Assembly: GCF_000189755.2 (NCBI RefSeq)
Contig: NZ_KI912183.1
Location: 436,257 to 500,256 of the forward strand
Length of the DNA stretch: 64,000 nt
Source of the DNA: Desulfotomaculum nigrificans DSM 574
GTDB lineage: Bacteria; Bacillota; Desulfotomaculia; Desulfotomaculales; Desulfotomaculaceae
Reading direction: 5' to 3'
Part shown: positions 1-49,268 of the stretch, piece after piece
How the letters are laid out: every line of letters begins with the position of its first letter
Position numbering within the stretch: position 1 is the first letter of the stretch
Notes under the pieces: model-generated
Told to the model about the DNA's origin: nothing
Seen by the model: the letters and a program-made list of their open reading frames with translations, nothing else
Database searches by the model: none
Program-made: the position numbers and the translations under genes

Positions 1-936
1 TCACCTTACTATTTGGCTCTGGTGATAATAAGCGGCCTGACTGGTCCCATAGGGAAGCAAGCCATTCCCAGTATTAAGGAGATTGAAGACCACTCTGGTG
101 TAGAAGACCCCATGGGTGAAGAATTTACCTCGCCAGCGCCGGCCATAACCAGACGTTATCCAGACCGGCTGATTATAAATGTAACAAATCAATGTGCCAT
201 GTATTGTCGGCACTGCCAGAGAAGACGCAACATCGGTGAGGTTGATGTGCATAAGCCACGTAAAGTGTTACAAGCTGCCCTGGACTATATCAGAGAAAAT
301 GAAGAAATTCGAGATGTTTTAATTACCGGTGGGGATGCCTTACTTTTACCCGACAAGCAAATTGATTGGTTATTAACCGAGTTAGATCGTATTCCCCATG
401 TGGAAATTAAACGGATAGGTACCCGTACCCCGGTAACCATGCCTCAGCGTATTACTCCCACCCTGTGTGCTATTTTAGAAAAACATCCGCCTATTTATAT
501 TAATACTCAATTTAATCACCCGCTAGAAGTCACCCCCGAGGCTAAAACCGCCTGTGACCGTCTGGTTAAAGCCGGGGTTGTTTTAGGAAACCAGGCTGTG
601 CTATTAAAGGACATTAATAACCATCCGGATGTTATGAAAAGGCTAAATCAAAGCCTGTTACAAATTCGGGTCAGACCTTATTACATTTTTCATGCTAAAA
701 ATGTAAAGGGGACCGGACATTTTATTACCAGCGTAGAAGAGGGCATTGCTATTATGGATCAACTAAGGGGATATACTTCCGGATTAGCTGTTCCTACCTA
801 TATAATTAATGCACCCAACGGTTATGGTAAGACACCCATATTACCCCAGTATGTCCTGGATCGTAAGGATAATTATATTACCCTGCGAACATGGGAAAAG
901 AGAGTAATCCGTTATCCTATAGATGGTCAACATTAA
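1..936 (+). CDS. eam: Glutamate 2,3-aminomutase-type radical SAM enzyme (5' truncated by window edge)
   Basis: KamA-family, PLP-dependent radical SAM aminomutase. The frame is open from base 1 and begins inside a typical KamA segment, so roughly 100 N-terminal residues lie outside. Counting the codon at base 1 as residue 1, the SAM-cluster motif CxxxCxxC is C65, C69 and C72. Lysine 2,3-aminomutases bind the distal amino group of lysine with two Asp residues 37 positions apart. Here those positions are K233 (HAKN) and N270 (INAPNGYG), also 37 apart. As I recall the literature, this Lys/Asn pair marks glutamate 2,3-aminomutase, which converts L-glutamate to beta-glutamate, often an osmolyte. 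The family is certain and the substrate is inferred. An intrinsic terminator follows. Confidence 0.88.
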   Translation, partial: SPYYLALVIISGLTGPIGKQAIPSIKEIEDHSGVEDPMGEEFTSPAPAITRRYPDRLIINVTNQCAMYCRHCQRRRNIGEVDVHKPRKVLQAALDYIRENEEIRDVLITGGDALLLPDKQIDWLLTELDRIPHVEIKRIGTRTPVTMPQRITPTLCAILEKHPPIYINTQFNHPLEVTPEAKTACDRLVKAGVVLGNQAVLLKDINNHPDVMKRLNQSLLQIRVRPYYIFHAKNVKGTGHFITSVEEGIAIMDQLRGYTSGLAVPTYIINAPNGYGKTPILPQYVLDRKDNYITLRTWEKRVIRYPIDGQH

Positions 937-963
937 TAAAAACATTCATGACTTAAGGTCACG

Positions 964-1001
964 GGCTATGATAAAGATTAATCGTAGCCTGTATTTTTTT
1001 T
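964..1001 (+). terminator. Intrinsic terminator after eam
   Basis: A 9-bp stem (964-972 with 981-989, one G-U pair) is followed by a T-rich tract at 991-1001. Confidence 0.8.
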
Positions 1002-1052
1002 ATCATCCCTCCCATAATAACAGTTGTACCTTATAGATTTAGGAGGGCAAAG

Positions 1053-2177
1053 GTGACAAAGGTATATGTATTGGGAGCAGGAGCTGCAGCGGCCTATAAG
1101 GGTTCCTTTCTGGGGGAAACCTCCCCGGTGGCTAAAAACTTTTTTCAAAAGGCTATGCGAGTAATAAATATACATCAGGTGGGAGACCGCCGCTTCGGGG
1201 ATGATAATCTAAGCTTTGATCACATATTTAATTTTATTTATAAATTTTGGGGTATACCAAAAGAGAAAATTGCTGAGGCCAACCTGGATATGGAAGAGGT
1301 TCTCACTATTCTCAACATTGAATTGGAGGAGGATGTTAGCGGGCGGGATAAGCTTTTGCAAGCCTATGAGGAGTATCTTTTGTTAATGGCTTTAACCTTT
1401 GATAAGATATTATACGGTGAGCCATGCCCCAATCATTATCAAATTGCCAGGTCACTAAATCCAGGTGATACCATTATTTCCTTTAATTATGAACTGCTGA
1501 TGGATTACGCCTTACATAATTTAAAGGACAGTCGGACACATTGGTATATTGGAGACGGTTATGGCCTACCCTGCACTTACCTTAGCAGTGATGATTTGGA
1601 CAAAAAGGGAATTGTAAAAAATAAACGCGGGGTGCAATATAAAAATAGGTTTTCAAATGTTAAACTTTTAAAATTACATGGCTCCCTAAACTGGCTTTAC
1701 TGTCCTCAATGCGGGGAATTGTATGCCTATGAACATAGTGACGCCAGAGGTCACAGTGTGATCGTTAACGGTATGGCCAATATGATCAAATGCAGCACTA
1801 AGCACTGCTGTCATCGATTAAGCCGGGTCATTATTCCGCCTACGCTAATGAAAAACTATCAATCAATACCTTTCATACCTAAACTATGGCAGCAGGCCCG
1901 GCAAGCTCTGGAACGAGCAATTGAAATCATTGTAATAGGTTACTCTTTTCCGCCTACTGACTTTAGGTCCAACTGGATGTTTCGTAAGGCTATGGTAAAA
2001 AATAAGTCCCTTAAGCATGTAACTATTGTAGACACTGCCGAAGGTTACCAGTTAGAGACGTTATTGGCTAAACATAAAAGTATATTTAGATTGGATAACA
2101 TTAAGTTTTATCATGATTTTTTTAGTTTTAACAAAGAATTAAGTAAACTTACTAAAGATAGCAATGTATATAAGTAA
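1053..2177 (+). CDS. SIR2-like domain protein with zinc-ribbon insert
   Basis: A 374-residue protein with a GTG start behind AGGAGG. It opens with a Rossmann-like glycine motif (VLGAGAAAAY, about residues 6-15). It then has SFNYELLMD near 143-151, LHGSLNW, and a C-terminal VIGYSFPPTD, an arrangement typical of SIR2_2-like NAD-binding proteins. Two Cys pairs (C217/C220 and C247/C252) resemble the zinc ribbon of sirtuins. SIR2-like domains occur as NAD-depleting effectors in phage defence and also as stand-alone proteins of unknown role. No second defence gene is adjacent, so a defence role is only possible. It stands alone between two terminators. Confidence 0.75.
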   Translation: MTKVYVLGAGAAAAYKGSFLGETSPVAKNFFQKAMRVINIHQVGDRRFGDDNLSFDHIFNFIYKFWGIPKEKIAEANLDMEEVLTILNIELEEDVSGRDKLLQAYEEYLLLMALTFDKILYGEPCPNHYQIARSLNPGDTIISFNYELLMDYALHNLKDSRTHWYIGDGYGLPCTYLSSDDLDKKGIVKNKRGVQYKNRFSNVKLLKLHGSLNWLYCPQCGELYAYEHSDARGHSVIVNGMANMIKCSTKHCCHRLSRVIIPPTLMKNYQSIPFIPKLWQQARQALERAIEIIVIGYSFPPTDFRSNWMFRKAMVKNKSLKHVTIVDTAEGYQLETLLAKHKSIFRLDNIKFYHDFFSFNKELSKLTKDSNVYK

Positions 2178-4405: not shown

Positions 4406-4570
4406 GTACTTTTTTAAAGAAATTTATGGAAAGTATAATCTTAGATTTTGACTATACCAAGTCTGGTAACAGTTAAAAAGTTAATATTTTCGTAATGATT
4501 TAGTAAAGCAAAATCAATTGATCTCTGGTAGGATATGATTGTGAATTTATATTTACAGGAGGGAACCGGG

Positions 4571-7500
4571 GTGAAAGATAAACTAATTGATTTACTAAAA
4601 AGCAATGAAGAAAATATTATCACAAGGTTAATTGATTACGCTAAAGTTGGCGGTTTCACCCGGTATAATTCTACACGTCATGAAGATTGGCAGATTTCTG
4701 TTAGAGAAATAATACGGGAATTAGCTCATTATGTAGATGAATTTACGGATGATGTCATTTCTGTACATGATAATGCTAAAGATAATTCAGTGGCCAAATT
4801 TGGTATTAAAACTGCCAGAACCCATAGGTCCAGGGGCATTACTTTAAGAATGTTTTTGGGTTTATTTAAATATTACCGCCAGGCTTACCTGGATATAATT
4901 GATGCATGCGATTTAACTACCAATGAAAAATACCAGGCTAAAAAGATTATGAATACATATTTTGACCGGTATGAGTTGGCCTTTTGCAGTGAGTGGGCAG
5001 GTGAGGGCCCGGAATCAAGGTTGACTGAAATGCAGGCTGTTAACCGGGCCTTAACTAATGAAAAGAATAAGTTGAGAACTATTTTTGAAAGTATGAATGA
5101 ATGTGTATTTGTGGTTGATTCCAATATGAGAATTACCGAAATTAATGCTGCCGCTGCTGCCTATTTTGGTGTAGCACCTGAGGAAGTGCTGGGTATGCAT
5201 TGTGCAAGTCTGTTGGGTTGTAATTGTGATTTAGGGAAATGTCATTTATATCATGCTATGAAAAGCGGTAGTTGTTATAAAGATATAGAAATAGTGATAA
5301 ATACCAAACAAGGGCCGAGACGTATATTAACCAGTGGATCATTTTTGCATGATATCAGTGGTAAATATGCCGGAGGGGTTCAGGTTTTTGTCGATGTTAC
5401 AGAACGTTATAACATGGAACAGGCCTTACGTTTGCATAAGCAAGCTAATAATAGTTCCAGCGAGTGTGTCACCATTTTTAATGAAAATGCTCAGTTAATA
5501 TATGCCAACCAGGCGGCCATAAAATTATTTAATCGAAGTATGGCCGAACTGATGGGGTTAGGTATAGAGGAAGTGTATCCCGGTGGAGATAAAATCCTTT
5601 TTAACTTAATAAAAGGTGATTTCTGGCAAGGAGAGTTAACACCGGTAAAGGATAATCCCAACATTTATGTTCATGTGCATGCCAATCCCATCCGCGAGAA
5701 TAAAGGAAAGATTATCGGGTTTTATGTGGCAGCCAGAGACATTACAGAACACAAGATGGCTCAGCTCAGACTAAGGGAAGCAAGACAAGAAATTGAACGG
5801 GAAGCCGCCAAATTGCGGGCCATTGTTTCCATCTTGAATGCTTCTATTGCTTTAGCAGACGCCAACGACCGGATTATTGAGGTTAACGAAAAATGTCTTA
5901 AAATAACCGGAAAGAGCCGGCAAGAACTTATTGGCCGAAGCATTTGGGATCTCCATCAAGGAGAAACATTGGACAGAGTTCGCCAAATTGTTGATACCTA
6001 TAAGCAAGACCCTAACCACCCGCCCATTAATATCACCCGCCGGTTAGAGGAGTCAGATGTGATCATGAGTATACAACCGGTTTACCGGGATAAAATCTAT
6101 GATGGTATCCTATTAATGGTGGTGGATGTTACCGAAGTTGCTGCCGCCAAGAGGCAAGCGGAGGAAGCCCGGGAGGCAGCGGAAAGGGCTAACCAGGCCA
6201 AGTCAGAATTTCTAGCCAATATGAGCCATGAGATTAGAACACCTATGAATGGGATCCTGGGTTTTGCCGAAATATTATTGCAAACTAATTTAAACTCACA
6301 ACAGGAGGAAAGCGTTAGAATAATCCAGCAGTGTGGTGAAAACCTATTGGATTTAATTAATGACATTTTAGATTTATCCAAAATTGAATCAGGCAAAATG
6401 GTGCTGGAACAGACCACCTTCAGTTTAAGGAAACTAATTTACGAAGCTGTCAATGTCATTGAACCAAAACTTATAGAAAAGGGAGTAGAAATAAAAATTT
6501 CTATTCAAAAGGATTTACCTGATTACTTTAAAGGTGACCCCACCCGCATTCGTCAGGTGCTAAATAATCTACTGTCAAATGCCGCTAAATTTACTCATGA
6601 GGGGCATGTTGAGGTCAAAGTTAACGGCCAAAAAGACCACTCGGTGGAAACAGACAGCTTTACCCTGGTGTTCTCCGTGTCTGATACTGGAATTGGAATT
6701 CCAAGAGAAAAATTGGATCTAATTTTTGAATCATTTACTCAGGCGGATGGTTCAACCACCAGGAAATACGGTGGCACCGGTTTAGGCCTAACCATTAGCC
6801 GTAGTCTGATTAACCTGATGGGTGGCCAAATCACTGTTGAGAGTGAAGTAAATCGGGGATCTAAATTTTCCTTTTCCATTCCTGGGTTACCGGTGGTGTT
6901 AGTGGAAAATAATTACAGTGAAGAGAATGATAAAGAAAATATTGGATCAGGTGTGGTTTTGGTGGCGGAAGATGAATGGACCACCAAACAACTCATAGCT
7001 AACTATTTAGAAAAGGCTGGGTACACGGTAGTAGCCACGGACCAGGGCAAGCAAGCGTTGACTTTGGCTAAAATTTACCAACCCGATGTCTTAGTTTTGG
7101 ATATCCTTCTGCCAGATCTCAGTGGTTGGGAGGTATTGGCCAAAATTAAAAAAGACCAGGAAACACAGGATATTCCGGTGGTAGTTTGTTCCGTGTTACC
7201 AGAAAAAGAAAGGGCATTCTCTCTGGGGGCCGTTGATTTTATCGAAAAAACAGTTTCCGAAAAAGTATTAGTAAACCGGCTCCAAAAGCTTACCCACTCC
7301 CGGAGAAGTGACCAAACCCACATAGTATTAATTGATGATGATAAAATGGCATTGGAATTTCTTAACTGTATTGTGGGTGGAGCAGGTTACCAAACCCACA
7401 GCTTTATGTTGGCTGAGGAAGCTTTAAACTATATCATTAATGGCGGTCAGGTACATGCCATCATTTTGGATCTATTGATGCCTGGTATGGATGGCTTTGA

Positions 7501-8395
7501 GTTTTTGGATAATCTAAGAGCTGATGCCAATTATAAATCTATACCGGTTTTAATTTATACTGGCAAAGACTTAACTAAAGAAGATTACCAGAAATTAAAT
7601 GATAAATATGAAAGACTACTAAACAAGAGTTTTATGCACCCGGACATTTTACTGAAAGAGTTAAGCTTACTTATCAAAGATAGGTCTATAAGCGGTTCAG
7701 ATGCTCCGGATAATAAAAATAAAATAACTAATGTTTTATTGGTGGAAGATAACCAATTTAACCAGCGCTTAATCCAGCACCTTCTGGCCGATAATGGGTA
7801 CCGGGTCACCCTTGCTGAAAATGGGCAGCAGGCTTTAGAAATGCTTAACCAGAGTAATTTTGATATTGTTTTAATGGATATGCAAATGCCTGTAATGGAT
7901 GGTTATGAGACCACCAGAGTAATCAGGAGTGATGAAAGGTATAAGTCGTTGCCTATCATCGCTTTAACCGCCCACGCCATGAAGGGTGACAATGAAAAAT
8001 GTCTGGCTGCCGGCTGTGATGATTATTTAGCTAAACCGGTAAAAAGGGATATCCTGATTAAGACCATTAAAAAATATATACAGCCGGGGCAAAGGGTTAA
8101 AAAGAGTAGGATCCGAGATACCGGTGTGGAGTCCTTGGTTCCCTGGTACTTACAAGACCTAGCCGGTGAAATGGATAAATTAAAACACGCAGCCAGTACT
8201 AATGATTTTACCACCGTAAGGTATATTAGCCATGGTTTAAAAGGCAGCGGGGGGGCCTATGGTTTTCCGGAATTGTCAGATATGGGAGCGCAAATTGAGC
8301 GGGCCGCCATAAATCAGGAAGCAGAATTGGTTAAATCCCTGGTGGTACAATTACGAGAATTATATACCCAGATACTGGAAGATGAACTTCAGTAA
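4571..8395 (+). CDS. Hybrid sensor histidine kinase with three PAS, three receiver and one HPt domain
   Basis: A 1274-residue phosphorelay protein. GTG 4571 is chosen because AGGAGGG precedes it; an in-frame ATG at 4535 has no site. Order: an N-terminal helical sensory region (about 1-140, RsbRD_N-like), three PAS domains (about 165-510), HisKA with H553 in SHEIRTP, an HATPase with N box and SDTGIGIP/GGTGLGL, receivers with phospho-acceptors D844, D967 and D1103, and an HPt with H1221 in HGLKG. No membrane segment is seen, so the signal is probably cytosolic. The first PAS carries a cysteine cluster (HCASLLGCNC...KC...SC) suggesting redox or metal sensing. No response regulator gene is adjacent; the output partner is unknown. 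A terminator follows. Confidence 0.92.
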   Translation: MKDKLIDLLKSNEENIITRLIDYAKVGGFTRYNSTRHEDWQISVREIIRELAHYVDEFTDDVISVHDNAKDNSVAKFGIKTARTHRSRGITLRMFLGLFKYYRQAYLDIIDACDLTTNEKYQAKKIMNTYFDRYELAFCSEWAGEGPESRLTEMQAVNRALTNEKNKLRTIFESMNECVFVVDSNMRITEINAAAAAYFGVAPEEVLGMHCASLLGCNCDLGKCHLYHAMKSGSCYKDIEIVINTKQGPRRILTSGSFLHDISGKYAGGVQVFVDVTERYNMEQALRLHKQANNSSSECVTIFNENAQLIYANQAAIKLFNRSMAELMGLGIEEVYPGGDKILFNLIKGDFWQGELTPVKDNPNIYVHVHANPIRENKGKIIGFYVAARDITEHKMAQLRLREARQEIEREAAKLRAIVSILNASIALADANDRIIEVNEKCLKITGKSRQELIGRSIWDLHQGETLDRVRQIVDTYKQDPNHPPINITRRLEESDVIMSIQPVYRDKIYDGILLMVVDVTEVAAAKRQAEEAREAAERANQAKSEFLANMSHEIRTPMNGILGFAEILLQTNLNSQQEESVRIIQQCGENLLDLINDILDLSKIESGKMVLEQTTFSLRKLIYEAVNVIEPKLIEKGVEIKISIQKDLPDYFKGDPTRIRQVLNNLLSNAAKFTHEGHVEVKVNGQKDHSVETDSFTLVFSVSDTGIGIPREKLDLIFESFTQADGSTTRKYGGTGLGLTISRSLINLMGGQITVESEVNRGSKFSFSIPGLPVVLVENNYSEENDKENIGSGVVLVAEDEWTTKQLIANYLEKAGYTVVATDQGKQALTLAKIYQPDVLVLDILLPDLSGWEVLAKIKKDQETQDIPVVVCSVLPEKERAFSLGAVDFIEKTVSEKVLVNRLQKLTHSRRSDQTHIVLIDDDKMALEFLNCIVGGAGYQTHSFMLAEEALNYIINGGQVHAIILDLLMPGMDGFEFLDNLRADANYKSIPVLIYTGKDLTKEDYQKLNDKYERLLNKSFMHPDILLKELSLLIKDRSISGSDAPDNKNKITNVLLVEDNQFNQRLIQHLLADNGYRVTLAENGQQALEMLNQSNFDIVLMDMQMPVMDGYETTRVIRSDERYKSLPIIALTAHAMKGDNEKCLAAGCDDYLAKPVKRDILIKTIKKYIQPGQRVKKSRIRDTGVESLVPWYLQDLAGEMDKLKHAASTNDFTTVRYISHGLKGSGGAYGFPELSDMGAQIERAAINQEAELVKSLVVQLRELYTQILEDELQ

Positions 8396-8545: not shown

Positions 8546-9625
8546 ATGAAAATCTTAGTCGAAAACCTGTCGGAGGAAGAATTAAAACCTTTGTATGAAG
8601 ACCCCAACCAACTTGGTTTCGGCCGCATCTTTACCGATCGTATGTTTACCATGAGGTATAAGAAAGGTATGGGGTGGACTGATGCCAGGATAGAAAAATA
8701 TAAAAATTTTAGTTTTGATCCTTCCTCCTGTGTATGTCATTATTCCCAGGAGATTTTTGAGGGTTTAAAAGCATATGCTGGGGCAGAAGGCCAGATTTTG
8801 CTCTTTAGGCCTGAACAAAACGTTAAAAGAATGAATCGATCCGCTGAACGTTTAGTTATGCCCACCATTCCGGAAGAGGATATGTTACAGGCAATTGAGG
8901 AGCTGGTGGTGGCTGAGAAACGTTGGATTCCCAAGGCACCCGGCACTTCTATGTATATTAGGCCTACCATGGTGGCCACCGAACCTTTCCTGGGAGTACA
9001 TCCTTCATCGGAGTATTTATTTTATATTATTTTAAGTCCTGTTGGCGCCTACTATAAAGAAGGATTCCAGCCAGTTAAATTATATGTTGAAGATACCTAT
9101 GTGCGGGCTGTTGTCGGTGGAGTAGGGGATATTAAAACCGGCGGCAATTATGCAGCCAGTTTATTAGCCGGCTACAAGGCCCAGCAAATGGGATTTTCTC
9201 AAGTACTGTGGTTAGATGCTTGCCAGCACAAGTATATTGAAGAAGTTGGGTCTATGAATATGTTCTTTGTGTTTGGCAATAAACTTGTTACCCCGGCCTT
9301 AACAGGTTCCATTTTACCTGGTATTACCCGCGCTTCTATACTACAACTGGCCCAACATCTGGGATACGAAACAGAAGAAAGACCCATTAGCATAGATGAA
9401 GTTATAGAAGGCATTAATCAAGGAACTCTTACCGAAGCCTTTGGTTCCGGCACCGCTGCGGTAATTTCTCCTGTCGGTTCCCTATACTTTAAAGAAAAGG
9501 ATTATGTAATCAACAACAATCAAGTTGGTCCTGTGACAGAGAAGTTATATAACACGCTGGTTGATATCCAGTACGGCAGAACCGTTGACCCATTTGGTTG
9601 GGTACGTGAAATAGGTAAACTCTAA
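8546..9625 (+). CDS. ilvE: Branched-chain amino acid aminotransferase
   Basis: A 359-residue class IV PLP aminotransferase. It transfers the amino group between glutamate and the keto acids of Leu, Ile and Val in the last step of their synthesis. ATG 8546 is chosen because GGAGAG precedes it; upstream in-frame starts lack a site. The Schiff-base lysine is K197 in GDIKTGGNYA. The C-terminal region holds LTEAFGSGTAA. Length and motifs match the longer group II BCAT type. It is monocistronic with a strong terminator. No T-box or CodY box was recognised in the short leader, although codY lies in this window. Confidence 0.95.
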   Translation: MKILVENLSEEELKPLYEDPNQLGFGRIFTDRMFTMRYKKGMGWTDARIEKYKNFSFDPSSCVCHYSQEIFEGLKAYAGAEGQILLFRPEQNVKRMNRSAERLVMPTIPEEDMLQAIEELVVAEKRWIPKAPGTSMYIRPTMVATEPFLGVHPSSEYLFYIILSPVGAYYKEGFQPVKLYVEDTYVRAVVGGVGDIKTGGNYAASLLAGYKAQQMGFSQVLWLDACQHKYIEEVGSMNMFFVFGNKLVTPALTGSILPGITRASILQLAQHLGYETEERPISIDEVIEGINQGTLTEAFGSGTAAVISPVGSLYFKEKDYVINNNQVGPVTEKLYNTLVDIQYGRTVDPFGWVREIGKL

Positions 9626-9630
9626 GAATA

Positions 9631-9665
9631 AAGGCCTGGGGTAAAAATCCCAGGCCTTATGTTTT
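9631..9665 (+). terminator. Terminator after ilvE
   Basis: A 10-bp stem, AAGGCCTGGG with CCCAGGCCTT, followed by ATGTTTTG. Confidence 0.85.
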
Positions 9666-9699
9666 GAAAAAACGTTCACAAACACGGGTTAGAATATTT

Positions 9700-9717
9700 T
9701 TATTGTTTAAACAATAA
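9700..9717 (+). promoter_or_regulatory. 18-bp perfect palindrome upstream of mini-gene 1
   Basis: TTATTGTTTAAACAATAA is self-complementary. It sits about 75 nt upstream of the first mini-gene and could be an operator. The second mini-gene does not have it. Confidence 0.35.
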
Positions 9718-9726
9718 CGTGGTACT

Positions 9727-9757
9727 AAGCAGGTAATTTTTACTAAATGTAGAATTT
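9727..9757 (+). repeat. 31-nt upstream element, copy 1
   Basis: AAGCAGG, 11 variable bases, then AAATGTAGAATTT, ending 35 nt before the TTG start of mini-gene 1. The same layout is repeated before mini-gene 2. Confidence 0.7.
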
Positions 9758-9792
9758 AATTTAAAATAATTTACGTTGGGGGAGTGTTATAG

Positions 9793-9945
9793 TTGTCAAC
9801 ACTACTTGAGGAATTAGCCAAAGATAGGGAGAAGTTTTTAGCTTTTTTGCAATACCTTATCGAAAGTGGGAGGCTAACCGAAGATGAAGTGATTGGCCTG
9901 GTAAGGCAATGGGAGCCTGATCAACGCCCTGAGGTGAAAAAATAA
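9793..9945 (+). CDS. Mini-protein, paralogue 1 (50 residues)
   Basis: TTG start behind a GGGGGA site. The protein is helical and acidic, with the core FLQYLIESGRLTEDEV. It is clearly related to the product of the next gene: F-L-x-Y-L followed by TEDEV is shared at the same spacing, along with about 16 identities overall. I recognise no family. Its size recalls small sporulation regulators such as Spo0E-like proteins, but the SxxxD signature of that family is not seen. The coding region has no apparent terminator before the second unit. Confidence 0.7.
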   Translation: MSTLLEELAKDREKFLAFLQYLIESGRLTEDEVIGLVRQWEPDQRPEVKK

Positions 9946-10013
9946 GATAAATAATAGTTTGAATTGTTCGATAAGTATTATAAATTATAACTAACGAAAA
10001 AATTACACGTTTT

Positions 10014-10044
10014 AAGCAGGAGATGCTTGTGAAATGTAGAATTT
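10014..10044 (+). repeat. 31-nt upstream element, copy 2
   Basis: AAGCAGG, 11 variable bases, then AAATGTAGAATTT, identical to copy 1 in both constant blocks and spacing. It ends 34 nt before the proposed start of mini-gene 2. Confidence 0.7.
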
Positions 10045-10060
10045 GTCATTAACATGACAA
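10043..10060 (+). promoter_or_regulatory. Inverted repeat before mini-gene 2
   Basis: TTGTCAT, four bases, ATGACAA lies just upstream of the ribosome binding site. It could be an operator or an RNA hairpin controlling translation. Confidence 0.35.
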
Positions 10061-10078
10061 GGATTGGGGGGTATCGAC

Positions 10079-10273
10079 ATTTATAAGTTACAGGAATTAC
10101 TAAGTAAAAATGAAGACATGCTGATGTGTTTTCTAAACTATCTGCAATTAAATAAAAAGATTACGGAAGATGAGGTTAAAGGATTTTTAAAGCTCTATGA
10201 AGAGCAAAAACAGGAAGATGACAGGAAACAGAGAAGGCATAAAAGCCTAAGAGAGTTGCAGTATATTAAGTAG
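10079..10273 (+). CDS. Mini-protein, paralogue 2 (64 residues), probable ATT start
   Basis: Paralogue of the preceding mini-gene (FLNYLQLNKKITEDEV) with a longer, charged C-terminal tail. The frame is open from TTG 10064, but that TTG abuts the GGGGGG site (10066-10071) and so is poorly placed. The codon that aligns with the start of paralogue 1 is ATT 10079, about 7 nt after the G run, at the same distance from the shared upstream element. I therefore propose ATT initiation, with TTG 10064 (69 residues) as the alternative. A strong terminator follows, and an intron relic is inserted right after it. Confidence 0.65.
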   Translation: MYKLQELLSKNEDMLMCFLNYLQLNKKITEDEVKGFLKLYEEQKQEDDRKQRRHKSLRELQYIK

Positions 10274-10303
10274 CCACTGGTTTTTTAGACCGGTGGCTTT
10301 TAT
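10272..10303 (+). terminator. Terminator after mini-gene 2 (intron insertion site)
   Basis: AGCCACTGG pairs with CCGGTGGCT, followed by TTTTAT, which directly abuts the intron-like GTGCG at 10304. Confidence 0.85.
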
Positions 10304-10720
10304 GTGCGCCCGGCATGTCTGCCGAGCCGCTGGGTTGAAAGAAACCCTGTCGCCCAACCAGTGGGAAGACAATCTGTAGGCAATGGCGTCACTGGCAACG
10401 GTGGGGTCTAAAGGAAGCCGAAGGGGGAACTTGGAACATAGCGAAAGCGAACCGTGGTTGGCCGATCAGGTGGGTAACCTTGCATATTATGGGAAAGCCC
10501 AATAGCTGGACAACCTGATAGGTTAGGACTGATGGATTCAAGTTCAGGCAAGCAGACTTAACCGACGAAGAACTTTTTCTTTCGGAATTAATGATTGATA
10601 AAATTCTTAATGCTTTTATGGCAAATTACTCTGCTTTATAAAAAACAGGTTATGTCTTCGTGCCGTATAAGGCACAGGGTTTGTCAAGTGCGAAACTTGA
10701 GTAACATTATAAATGATGGC
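10304..10720 (+). mobile_element. Group II intron relic lacking its reverse transcriptase
   Basis: The sequence begins GTGCGCCCGGCATG, the typical 5' end of bacterial group II introns. It continues with a domain I-like stretch to about 10560 containing GGTCTAAAGGAAGCC, AGCGAAAGCGAA, and a segment ending GGTGGGTAACC. The usual maturase/reverse transcriptase gene is absent, and no domain V hairpin was found before 10720, so the 3' boundary is approximate. Insertion directly after an intrinsic terminator is the habit of class C (IIC) introns. This fills most of the 526-base gap between 10273 and 10800. Confidence 0.72.
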
Positions 10721-10748
10721 CTGGTTTAACCGGGCCATTATATTTATT
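10716..10748 (+). terminator. Terminator-like hairpin before ligD-type gene
   Basis: ATGGCCTGG pairs with CCGGGCCAT around TTTAA, followed by TATATTTATT. Confidence 0.7.
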
Positions 10749-10799
10749 GTAACTTCGGGGACAAATAAATAGAGTAATGAGCCTTAGGAGGTAACAACG

Positions 10800-11708
10800 A
10801 TGACTGCGGAAACGGCAACCGAAGTTATGATAGAGGGAAAAAAACTAAAACTGACCAATTTAAATAAGATAATGTGGCCCGAGGGGTTGACCAAAGCACA
10901 TTTAGTAAAGTATTATACGGACATTGCGCCATATTTGTTACCTCATCTTAAAGGACGACCAATTGTCATGAAGCGATACCCGCACGGGATTGAAGGGGAA
11001 TTCTTTTATCAAAAAGATTGTCCGGATTATGCCCCGGAATGGATCAGTACCACTACCATTATTCATTCCGCTAAGAAAGTCAATTATATAATATGTAATG
11101 ATGTAGCCACGCTGGTTTGGTTGGCTAACCAGGGCTGCATTGAAATCCATGCCTGGTTATCGGCCAATCCGGCAGTGGAATACCCCAATATAGCAGTAAT
11201 AGATTTGGACCCTGGAGATGAAGCTACCTTTGAGGATGTTATGAGAGTAGCTTTGGTGGTAAGACAAGCATTAAACCAGTTAAAATTAAAAGGTTTCCCT
11301 AAAACCTCCGGTGCCAGTGGAATGCATATTTTTATTCCCATTAACCCGGTTTATTCTTTCCAGGAGGTAACTAAAGCTATGGGTTTTGTGGCTAAATTAG
11401 TTACCAGTACATATGCCAGCAAGGCTACCATTGAAAGGTCGTTGGATAAAAGAAGTAAAAATAAGGTTTATGTTGACTACTTACAAAATACCAGGGGTAA
11501 AAGTATGGCTTGGACCTACAGCTTGCGACCTTTACCCGGGGCACCGGTATCAACGCCCTTGTTATGGGAAGAAATTGAAAGTTTAGCCATAGATCCCAGG
11601 CAATTTAATATGCATAATATTTTAGGCAGGCTACATTTGTTTGGAGATTTATTTGCACCCATGGCCAACCAGATGCAAGAACTAGATCACATTTTAGCCA
11701 TGGGGTAG
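10800..11708 (+). CDS. Stand-alone LigD-type DNA polymerase/primase domain protein
   Basis: A 302-residue archaeo-eukaryotic primase (LigD_Prim_Pol) domain. The family fills gaps and adds nucleotides at broken DNA ends in bacterial non-homologous end joining. ATG start after TAGGAGG. The catalytic metal motif DLD is at 135-137 (VIDLDPGD). KTSGASGMHIFIP at 168-180 holds the conserved Ser/His region, and KVYVDYLQN supplies the third acidic residue. There is no ligase or nuclease domain, and neither ku nor a ligase gene adjoins it in this window. The N-terminal LTNLNKIMWPEGLTK block is typical. Confidence 0.9.
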   Translation: MTAETATEVMIEGKKLKLTNLNKIMWPEGLTKAHLVKYYTDIAPYLLPHLKGRPIVMKRYPHGIEGEFFYQKDCPDYAPEWISTTTIIHSAKKVNYIICNDVATLVWLANQGCIEIHAWLSANPAVEYPNIAVIDLDPGDEATFEDVMRVALVVRQALNQLKLKGFPKTSGASGMHIFIPINPVYSFQEVTKAMGFVAKLVTSTYASKATIERSLDKRSKNKVYVDYLQNTRGKSMAWTYSLRPLPGAPVSTPLLWEEIESLAIDPRQFNMHNILGRLHLFGDLFAPMANQMQELDHILAMG

Positions 11709-21350: not shown

Positions 21351-22001
21351 ATGGCACAAATTTCTGCAAGCATGGTTAAAGAGTTGAGAGAGCGTACCGG
21401 TGCTGGTATGATGGATTGTAAAAAAGCTTTGGCTGAAGTTGGCGGCGATATGGAGAAGGCCATTGAATTTCTGCGGGAAAAAGGTCTGGCTGCTGCTGCT
21501 AAAAAAGCCGGTAGAATTGCTGCTGAAGGCATTGTAGAATCATATATTCATGGTAACGGCCGGATTGGTGTTTTGGTCGAAATCAACTGTGAAACCGATT
21601 TTGTGGCCAGAAACGAAGACTTCCGGGCGCTGGCTAAAGATATTGCTATGCAGATTGCTGCTGCTAAACCGGAATATGTTCGCCGTGAAGATGTTCCGAG
21701 CGAGAAGCTTGAAAAAGAAAGAGAAATTCTGCGAGCCCAGGCTTTAAATGAAGGTAAACCTGAAAAAATTGTAGAAAAAATGGTAGAAGGACGGATTGAA
21801 AAATATTACAAAGAAGTTTGCTTATTAGAACAACCTTTCATTAAAGATCCGGATAAAACTGTACAGCAACTTATTAATGAAGCTATTGCTAAAATTGGTG
21901 AAAAAATTGATGTGCGCCGTTTTACCCGTTATGAGATGGGTGAAGGTTTAGAAAAGCGTAATCAAGACTTTGCAGCTGAAGTAGCGGCTCAAATTAAATA
22001 A
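21351..22001 (+). CDS. tsf: Elongation factor Ts
   Basis: A 216-residue guanine-nucleotide exchange factor for EF-Tu, of the short form common in clostridia. The UBA-like N-terminus reads [19 protein letters not shown], followed by the conserved [13 protein letters not shown] start behind AAAGGGGGAA. A hairpin of about 10 bp without a T tail lies between tsf and pyrH at 22018-22059. Confidence 0.97.
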
Positions 22002-22017
22002 GTTGGTATCCATCTGC

Positions 22018-23405
<1,388 letters not shown>

Positions 23406-49167: not shown

Positions 49168-49268
49168 AGTTTTTAGTATTTTTCTTAGCAGAAGAAGGAA
49201 ATACTATAAAAAATGTCGAATTGCTAAGATTTGTAAAGAATTGGAGCTCAGGAGGTTGTAAAAAAATA

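Follow-up and report, generated by a model that had tools for sequence, protein, structure and literature searches.

Two small tandem genes in the window (the whole stretch of 64,000 nt from Desulfotomaculum nigrificans DSM 574 analysed here) each appear to carry their own SigH promoter, and the second very probably starts at a conserved AUU codon. SigH promoters are known, and AUU starts are known but rare; the interesting feature of this locus is the conserved AUU. The reading we favour, with a probability of roughly 70%, combines one SigH promoter per gene, an AUU-started gene 2, and paralogous, genus-specific helical products that would bind a partner. Its promoter match, conservation, reading frames and AUU position were computed, and the features concerned are collected in Table 1.

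The locus contains a 32-nt direct repeat, with copies at 9726-9757 and 10013-10044 that are 78% identical and 287 nt apart, each copy preceding a small gene. The two encoded proteins match each other at 35% identity (E 4.4e-4) in one search and 33% (E 3.4e-4) in another, these E-values being calculated for one genome, and the family profiles of the two genes align over 39 columns with a probability of 81% and a pairwise E-value of 1.2e-5. The repeat, the open reading frames and the protein-protein matches together confirm the tandem pair of small related genes, each with an upstream element, described in the initial annotation. Counted from the ATT at 10079, the last residue codon of gene 2 ends at 10270 and the stop occupies 10271-10273, while the open reading frame listing gives a protein of 69 aa from a TTG at 10064. 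Terminator-like hairpins bound the pair on both sides, the first separating it from the upstream aminotransferase gene, so that the pair looks like an independent unit between that gene and the downstream sequence; three terminator-like sites were counted (two of them the 9631-9658 hairpin, read on either strand) against a mean of 0.3 in shuffled sequences. Codon substitution, which had been named as a check on the frames, points to their maintenance, with pN/pS of 0.10-0.18 across the genus genes (for gene 1, n=8, the window's own copy being left out), and 35 of the 64 positions of the gene 2 protein are invariant from the ATT on.

Table 1. Features of the tandem gene pair and its surroundings (window positions)
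Feature	Position	Strand	Remarks
Terminator-like hairpin after branched-chain aminotransferase gene	9631..9658	+	12 pairs, 7 GC
SigH-type promoter, gene 1	9729..9755	+	GCAGG 9729-9733, N14, TGTAGAAT 9748-9755; matrix rank 4 in window
Shine-Dalgarno of gene 1, GGGGGAG	9778..9784	+	8 nt before TTG; read from sequence
Gene 1	9793..9945	+	50 aa, TTG start, predicted helical (model pLDDT 77)
SigH-type promoter, gene 2	10016..10042	+	GCAGG 10016-10020, N14, TGTAGAAT 10035-10042; matrix rank 5 in window
Extra conserved sequence TTGTGAAATGT[AC]GAATTTGTC	10027..10047	+	overlaps gene 2 spacer and -10
Dyad TTGTCAT-TAAC-ATGACAA	10043..10060	+	just after -10 box, near expected transcription start
Shine-Dalgarno of gene 2, GGGGGG	10066..10071	+	7 nt before ATT
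Gene 2	10079..10273	+	64 aa, putative AUU start at 10079-10081
Terminator-like hairpin at gene 2 stop, end of unit	10272..10298	+	hairpin scan

Homologues of both proteins, the first thing the initial annotation had wanted looked for, were found in genus genomes with their frames maintained. Among 100 relatives, gene 1 was detected in nine genomes and gene 2 in ten at E <= 0.01, nine of each being the window's own genome and eight others of the genus, and the tenth gene 2 genome contributing a weak match (G038). A joint profile run against 113 genomes of the order matched 12, namely the nine of the genus and three weak partial ones, and a sample of 398 genomes of the phylum yielded six at E <= 0.001, two of them weak and the other four from the genus. 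None of the matches outside the genus in these three sets is convincing: that in G038 (E 0.0015) sits in a 197-aa AsnC/Lrp-like frame, presumably an AsnC/Lrp-type regulator; those in G021, G108, G109 and G310 are partial and lie in frames of 211-564 aa; and that in G334 contains two stops. Outside the genus, the taxonomic family is represented by one further genome (70% complete), in which neither gene was found. The closest topoisomerase relatives retrieved, in a search that may omit very near genomes, come from Pelotomaculum and Desulfotomaculaceae, and the genus is probably that of the Desulfotomaculum/Desulforamulus group. A third paralogue of 52 aa lies elsewhere in one genus genome (G004; L140, 2889-3044, minus strand) and has an ordinary ATG start; the best SigH score within 300 nt of it is 2.8, which does not amount to a good site.

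The neighbourhood is shared as well. In all nine genus genomes the pair stands in tandem behind the same branched-chain aminotransferase gene, itself preceded by a hybrid histidine kinase, of which the stretches fetched from the eight relatives include the C-terminal part only; in G007 the aminotransferase is broken into pieces in different frames. The window's downstream open reading frames (10800, 11785 and 13061) gave no match in the eight relatives' stretches, whose ends lie ~2.5 kb beyond the pair. Two tiny adjacent genes with a narrow distribution might suggest a module of mobile or phage origin, for instance a toxin-antitoxin pair. That origin is very improbable given the fixed chromosomal place behind the kinase and aminotransferase genes in all nine genomes, the absence of relatives of the pair from viral contigs and of gene 2 relatives from plasmids, a best phage family E-value of 0.016, and the fact that the proteins are paralogues, each gene having its own promoter. 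The kinase, encoded at 4535-8395 (+) and by its sequence a hybrid histidine kinase of 1286 aa with receiver domains, is a candidate for a function shared with the pair.

We recognised the two boxes of the repeat as a SigH (Spo0H) promoter from its consensus, and then tested that assignment. The fixed core, GCAGG-N14-TGTAGAAT, resembles the SigH promoters of spore-forming Firmicutes in combining an AGG(A) box, a fixed spacer and a TGT[AC]GAAT-type box, and differs in that the first box in this genus is often extended to GCAGG. For C. difficile, 40 SigH promoters are tabulated with expression ratios in a sigH mutant (PMC7438776 Table 3), and several of them contain TGTAGAAT or TGTCGAAT with AGGA upstream. 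From that table we built a matrix of 29 Clostridioides difficile promoters, leaving out nine that score below 3.48, spoVD (3.58; first box without AGG) and sigA2 (4.74; two AGG close together). The gap between the boxes is 13-15 in the 29 promoters and 14 at the pair; for Sporomusa, AGGA and GAAT are placed 17-18 nt apart (PMC12456013), compared with 17 nt between AGGN and GAAT here. Scored with the C. difficile matrix, the two window elements reach 18.8 and 17.8, 4th and 5th of ~128,000 positions, and the best score in the reversed window, 15.6, falls below both. When the best site in the 150 nt before each of the 18 genes at the nine genus loci is ranked among ~11,000 positions, 15 of these sites come 1st to 3rd; the gene 1 element is poor in three of nine genomes (L135, rank 5, score 11.9; L133, rank 11, score 10.2; L136, rank 27, score 7.5).

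The element also recurs well beyond the pair. A search for further copies, proposed alongside the homologue search, returned 31 in the own genome at up to one mismatch, as against three for the reversed pattern, and the nine genus genomes hold 51 exact matches (spacings of 10-20 allowed) versus seven controls, the spacing being 14 in 31 and 15 in 10 although eleven spacings were allowed. We examined the context of 30 of the 31 own-genome sites. By our own reading, 16 of these lie within ~130 nt before a same-strand gene start (a raw count), namely those of the pair itself and of 14 other genes, 13 of which match an NCBIfam family. Among the 13 are spoVG, a SpoIID/LytB protein, hfq, pyrH, an M23-type peptidase, a diguanylate cyclase, a kinase-like protein and a single-domain CheY-like response regulator; the remaining 14 sites are farther off, inside genes, or at the start of two transposase-like gene copies. 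The site at spoVG, a listed SigH target in C. difficile (PMC7438776), has one mismatch. All nine genus genomes encode SigH, eight of them with a match above the cut-off and G007 with the gene in two pieces. Judged by its sequence, the upstream element is of a known kind, a SigH (Spo0H) promoter, and not a novel element; with this the element has been given the identity that the initial annotation could not offer. The guess of sporulation-stage expression made there fits SigH promoters.

Other ways to read the element were considered. The consensus of the Spo0A box, TGTCGAA, occurs in some element copies; we rejected it as the explanation, as it lies in the -10 region of only two of the 18 upstream regions (both of gene 2), and the two-box spacing fits SigH. 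In 9500-11000, Rfam gave nothing at the gathering threshold for the upstream element, and a further Rfam search of the element produced two matches only, both far below their thresholds; the RNA element was rejected on this ground. A riboswitch, leader or small RNA, for which the conserved intergenic stretch and the dyad before gene 2 could speak, is accordingly highly unlikely, all the more so since SigH geometry places the repeat upstream of +1, so that it would not be transcribed from its own promoter. The earlier proposal of a functional regulatory or RNA element can therefore be narrowed: functional-looking it is, as a recognisable SigH promoter ranked 4th and 5th by the matrix, and the RNA half of the proposal falls with the negative Rfam result. 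Shortly after gene 2, at 10389-10556 (+), Rfam does identify a group II intron domain fragment (RF02001, 68 bits); it looks like a remnant, because no intron-encoded protein is apparent among the listed open reading frames and no other intron family matches in 9500-11000.

Compared with ordinary SigH promoters, that of gene 2 has two additions, a conserved spacer and a dyad close to +1. The 21-nt stretch TTGTGAAATGT[AC]GAATTTGTC occurs at this locus throughout the nine genus genomes, never with more than two mismatches; elsewhere there is a single match, in G006 with three mismatches, against three reversed controls at the same tolerance. The 11 bases reported as variable within the element are, at gene 2, largely conserved between species. 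The dyad has perfect 7-bp arms in the window and 3-5-bp arms in the other eight genomes, a modest excess (mean arm 4.6 for gene 2 leaders versus 3.0 in shuffles), and gene 1 leaders have a mean arm of 3.0 versus 3.3 in shuffles. In C. difficile, SigH starts appear to fall ~6-10 nt after GAAT, by our own reading of a table in which starts are unmarked (PMC7438776), and the gene 2 dyad should therefore straddle +1. At that position, an operator is a likelier role for the dyad than an RNA hairpin. In the gene 2 leader of L134 (minus strand), three successive GTTC-N7-GAAC dyads lie between the SigH -10 box and the Shine-Dalgarno sequence, and several other species carry TTGTC-N8-GACAA in their place.

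SigH alone does not account for the conserved spacer and dyad of gene 2, and these, together with own-genome matches that lie inside genes or start a transposase-like gene, lend some colour to the notion that another sigma factor or a DNA-binding regulator, and not SigH, recognises the element. We regard this as distinctly improbable: the two boxes keep a spacing of 14-15, the elements match SigH-dependent promoters of another species, and one site precedes spoVG. A regulator site may rather have been added onto the SigH promoter without replacing it.

With a SigH promoter assigned to each gene, attention turns to the start of gene 2. All nine genus genomes use ATT at codon 1; at codon 28, another invariant isoleucine, seven use ATA and two ATT. 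A Shine-Dalgarno sequence (GGGGG or GGAGG) stands 7-8 nt before the ATT in the nine genomes, with duplex energies of -11.4 to -13.5 kcal/mol, calculated with what we took to be the 16S tail. Codons 2-13 have a pN/pS ratio of 0.13 and codons 14-44 one of 0.10, compared with 1.21 in the five codons before the ATT (few sites), where no conserved protein sequence was seen among the nine genomes. The clearest case is L137, in which a TGA at codon -8 is followed by CAA AGA TCG GAG GTC ATT ATT ATT and no ATG, GTG or TTG occurs between that TGA and codon 14. As codons 2-13 of L137 are plainly translated, initiation must use another codon, most likely, from the sequence there, an ATT. The start codon of gene 1 shares the alignment column of the gene 2 ATT in eight of nine genomes and lies one codon earlier in L136. 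The infC gene, the classic example of an AUU start, served as a control: at eight of eight genus loci (the ninth, L174, being left out), it reads ATT TC[CG] AA[AG] behind GGAGGTGA-like sites, and the stretch from the in-frame TGA upstream to that ATT is free of ATG, GTG and TTG.

Gene 2 could instead start elsewhere, at the TTG at 10064 (codon -5) picked by the open reading frame listing, at ATC 10073 or at an upstream ATG, leaving the ATT as an internal isoleucine. Codon -5, which overlaps the Shine-Dalgarno sequence, is indeed TTG in five of the nine genomes and ATG in one (L136), and codon -2 is ATG in two (L133 and L135), where it follows the Shine-Dalgarno sequence by 2 nt and makes the start ambiguous; L136, whose ATG abuts the Shine-Dalgarno sequence, is less ambiguous. 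Such a start is nevertheless unlikely, given that codon -5 is AAG, ACG or TCG in three genomes, that the window's TTG lies directly against GGGGGG with no spaced Shine-Dalgarno before it, that L137 offers no canonical start before codon 14, and that protein constraint is lacking before the ATT. The absence of a usable canonical start, clearest in L137, the Shine-Dalgarno distance and the coding constraint agree in pointing to the ATT, at which gene 2 very probably starts. The initial annotation had counted gene 2 from 10079 without remarking on the ATT codon.

In the libraries searched, neither protein matches a described family. Searches of Pfam, NCBIfam, PHROGs, PDB sequences and Foldseek with both proteins gave nothing above noise, and neither the family nor its AUU start turned up in searches of open-licence PMC papers. 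The SHOCT-like domain DUF1707 was rejected, gene 1 reaching 14.8 bits against a cut-off of 27.6 and four of 19 family members matching weakly (best E 0.023). No PHROGs phage family scored convincingly (best E 0.016), the best PDB sequence row covers 27 positions at E 0.02 and is followed mostly by EF-hand and other helix fragments, and a CodY-YppF model among the Foldseek rows for gene 1 is not significant (E 7.1). The AlphaFold models of the two proteins, computed from nine close sequences, have pLDDT of 76-77 and pTM of 0.50-0.52; since both are of middling confidence, a missing fold match means little. Both proteins are predicted to be mainly helical, with short helices, a turn, usually T-E-[DE]-E, and another helix.

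SinI, Sda, Spo0E-like proteins and YppF are small sporulation and transition-state regulators, which the pair resembles in small size and, if the promoters are right, in SigH-type timing. The pair differs from all four in that none occurs among the Pfam hits of the 19 family members (E <= 1); SinI, Sda and Spo0E-like models, which we take to be in Pfam-A, are absent from the 18 families listed for those members. Expression timing, low yield, IF3 dependence and partner binding are what we infer beyond the computed features. On this reading each gene has its own SigH promoter, so that SigH RNA polymerase would transcribe both as cells enter stationary phase or sporulation. Gene 1 would be translated from its ordinary start codon and gene 2 from AUU behind a strong Shine-Dalgarno sequence, so that gene 2 output should be low, limited by initiation factor IF3. 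The products would be paralogous, genus-specific, mainly helical proteins, whose action most likely consists in binding another protein, as is the case for other very small regulators of sporulation and the transition state. Partner binding is a default guess by analogy, drawn from the helical prediction, the length of 50-64 residues and the lack of a recognisable relative, and it is the weakest step of the mechanism. A more speculative extension, which we consider rather doubtful, is that gene 2 encodes a protein of sporulation onset whose dose IF3 sets through the AUU, so that the start of development would be linked to the condition of the translation machinery; the gene 1 paralogue would then be made from the neighbouring SigH promoter without the IF3 brake, and the signal would lie in the relative amounts of the two proteins.

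Several non-canonical starts provide a frame for gene 2. PMC13009471 describes staphylococcal cvfC1, a 61-aa protein whose AUU start is conserved in staphylococci, reports non-canonical starts in S. aureus to give ~10% of the AUG yield in RPMI medium, and cites pcnB, in a reference title, as a non-canonical-start gene. IF3 represses non-canonical starts, including that of Streptomyces sigR (GTC), and E. coli infC has ATT; according to the same source, genes of this kind that have been studied in detail are very few, and the prediction of starts relies on ATG, GTG and TTG (PMC5472188). Gene 2 resembles infC, pcnB, cvfC1 and sigR in having a non-canonical start behind a strong Shine-Dalgarno sequence. 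In contrast to these genes, it matches no known family, is genus-restricted, has a SigH-type promoter, and has an AUU deduced from comparison. A genus-wide AUU on a SigH-driven small gene, if true, would add a case outside the translation machinery, and through it the stringency of start codons could be connected, in a way open to test, with development in a genus of spore formers. Identification of the promoter, moreover, makes the element serviceable as a marker of the genus's SigH regulon.

Three sites in the window outrank the elements of the pair. The best-scoring, at ~49194-49223 (+), lies ~47 nt before the probable ATG of a PNPase-like frame, which we take to encode polynucleotide phosphorylase. 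Another falls inside a 216-aa frame (21351-22001) whose presumed product is elongation factor Ts; this match probably arose by chance. The third, at 22072-22098 (+), is directly upstream of pyrH; the C. difficile SigH promoter table lists frr (PMC7438776). Elsewhere in the genome, two copies of what we take to be a transposase-like gene (L009 and L029) start with the same SigH-like box, so that transcription of a mobile element may take place in stationary phase. Finally, a SigH-type site with one mismatch in L018 (1501-1527, minus strand) lies ~310 nt upstream of the open reading frame for sulfate adenylyltransferase (23-1189, minus strand); sat is a core sulfate-reduction gene, and its SigH-like site brings to mind Sporomusa, for which an extended SigH regulon that takes in energy genes has been reported (PMC12456013).
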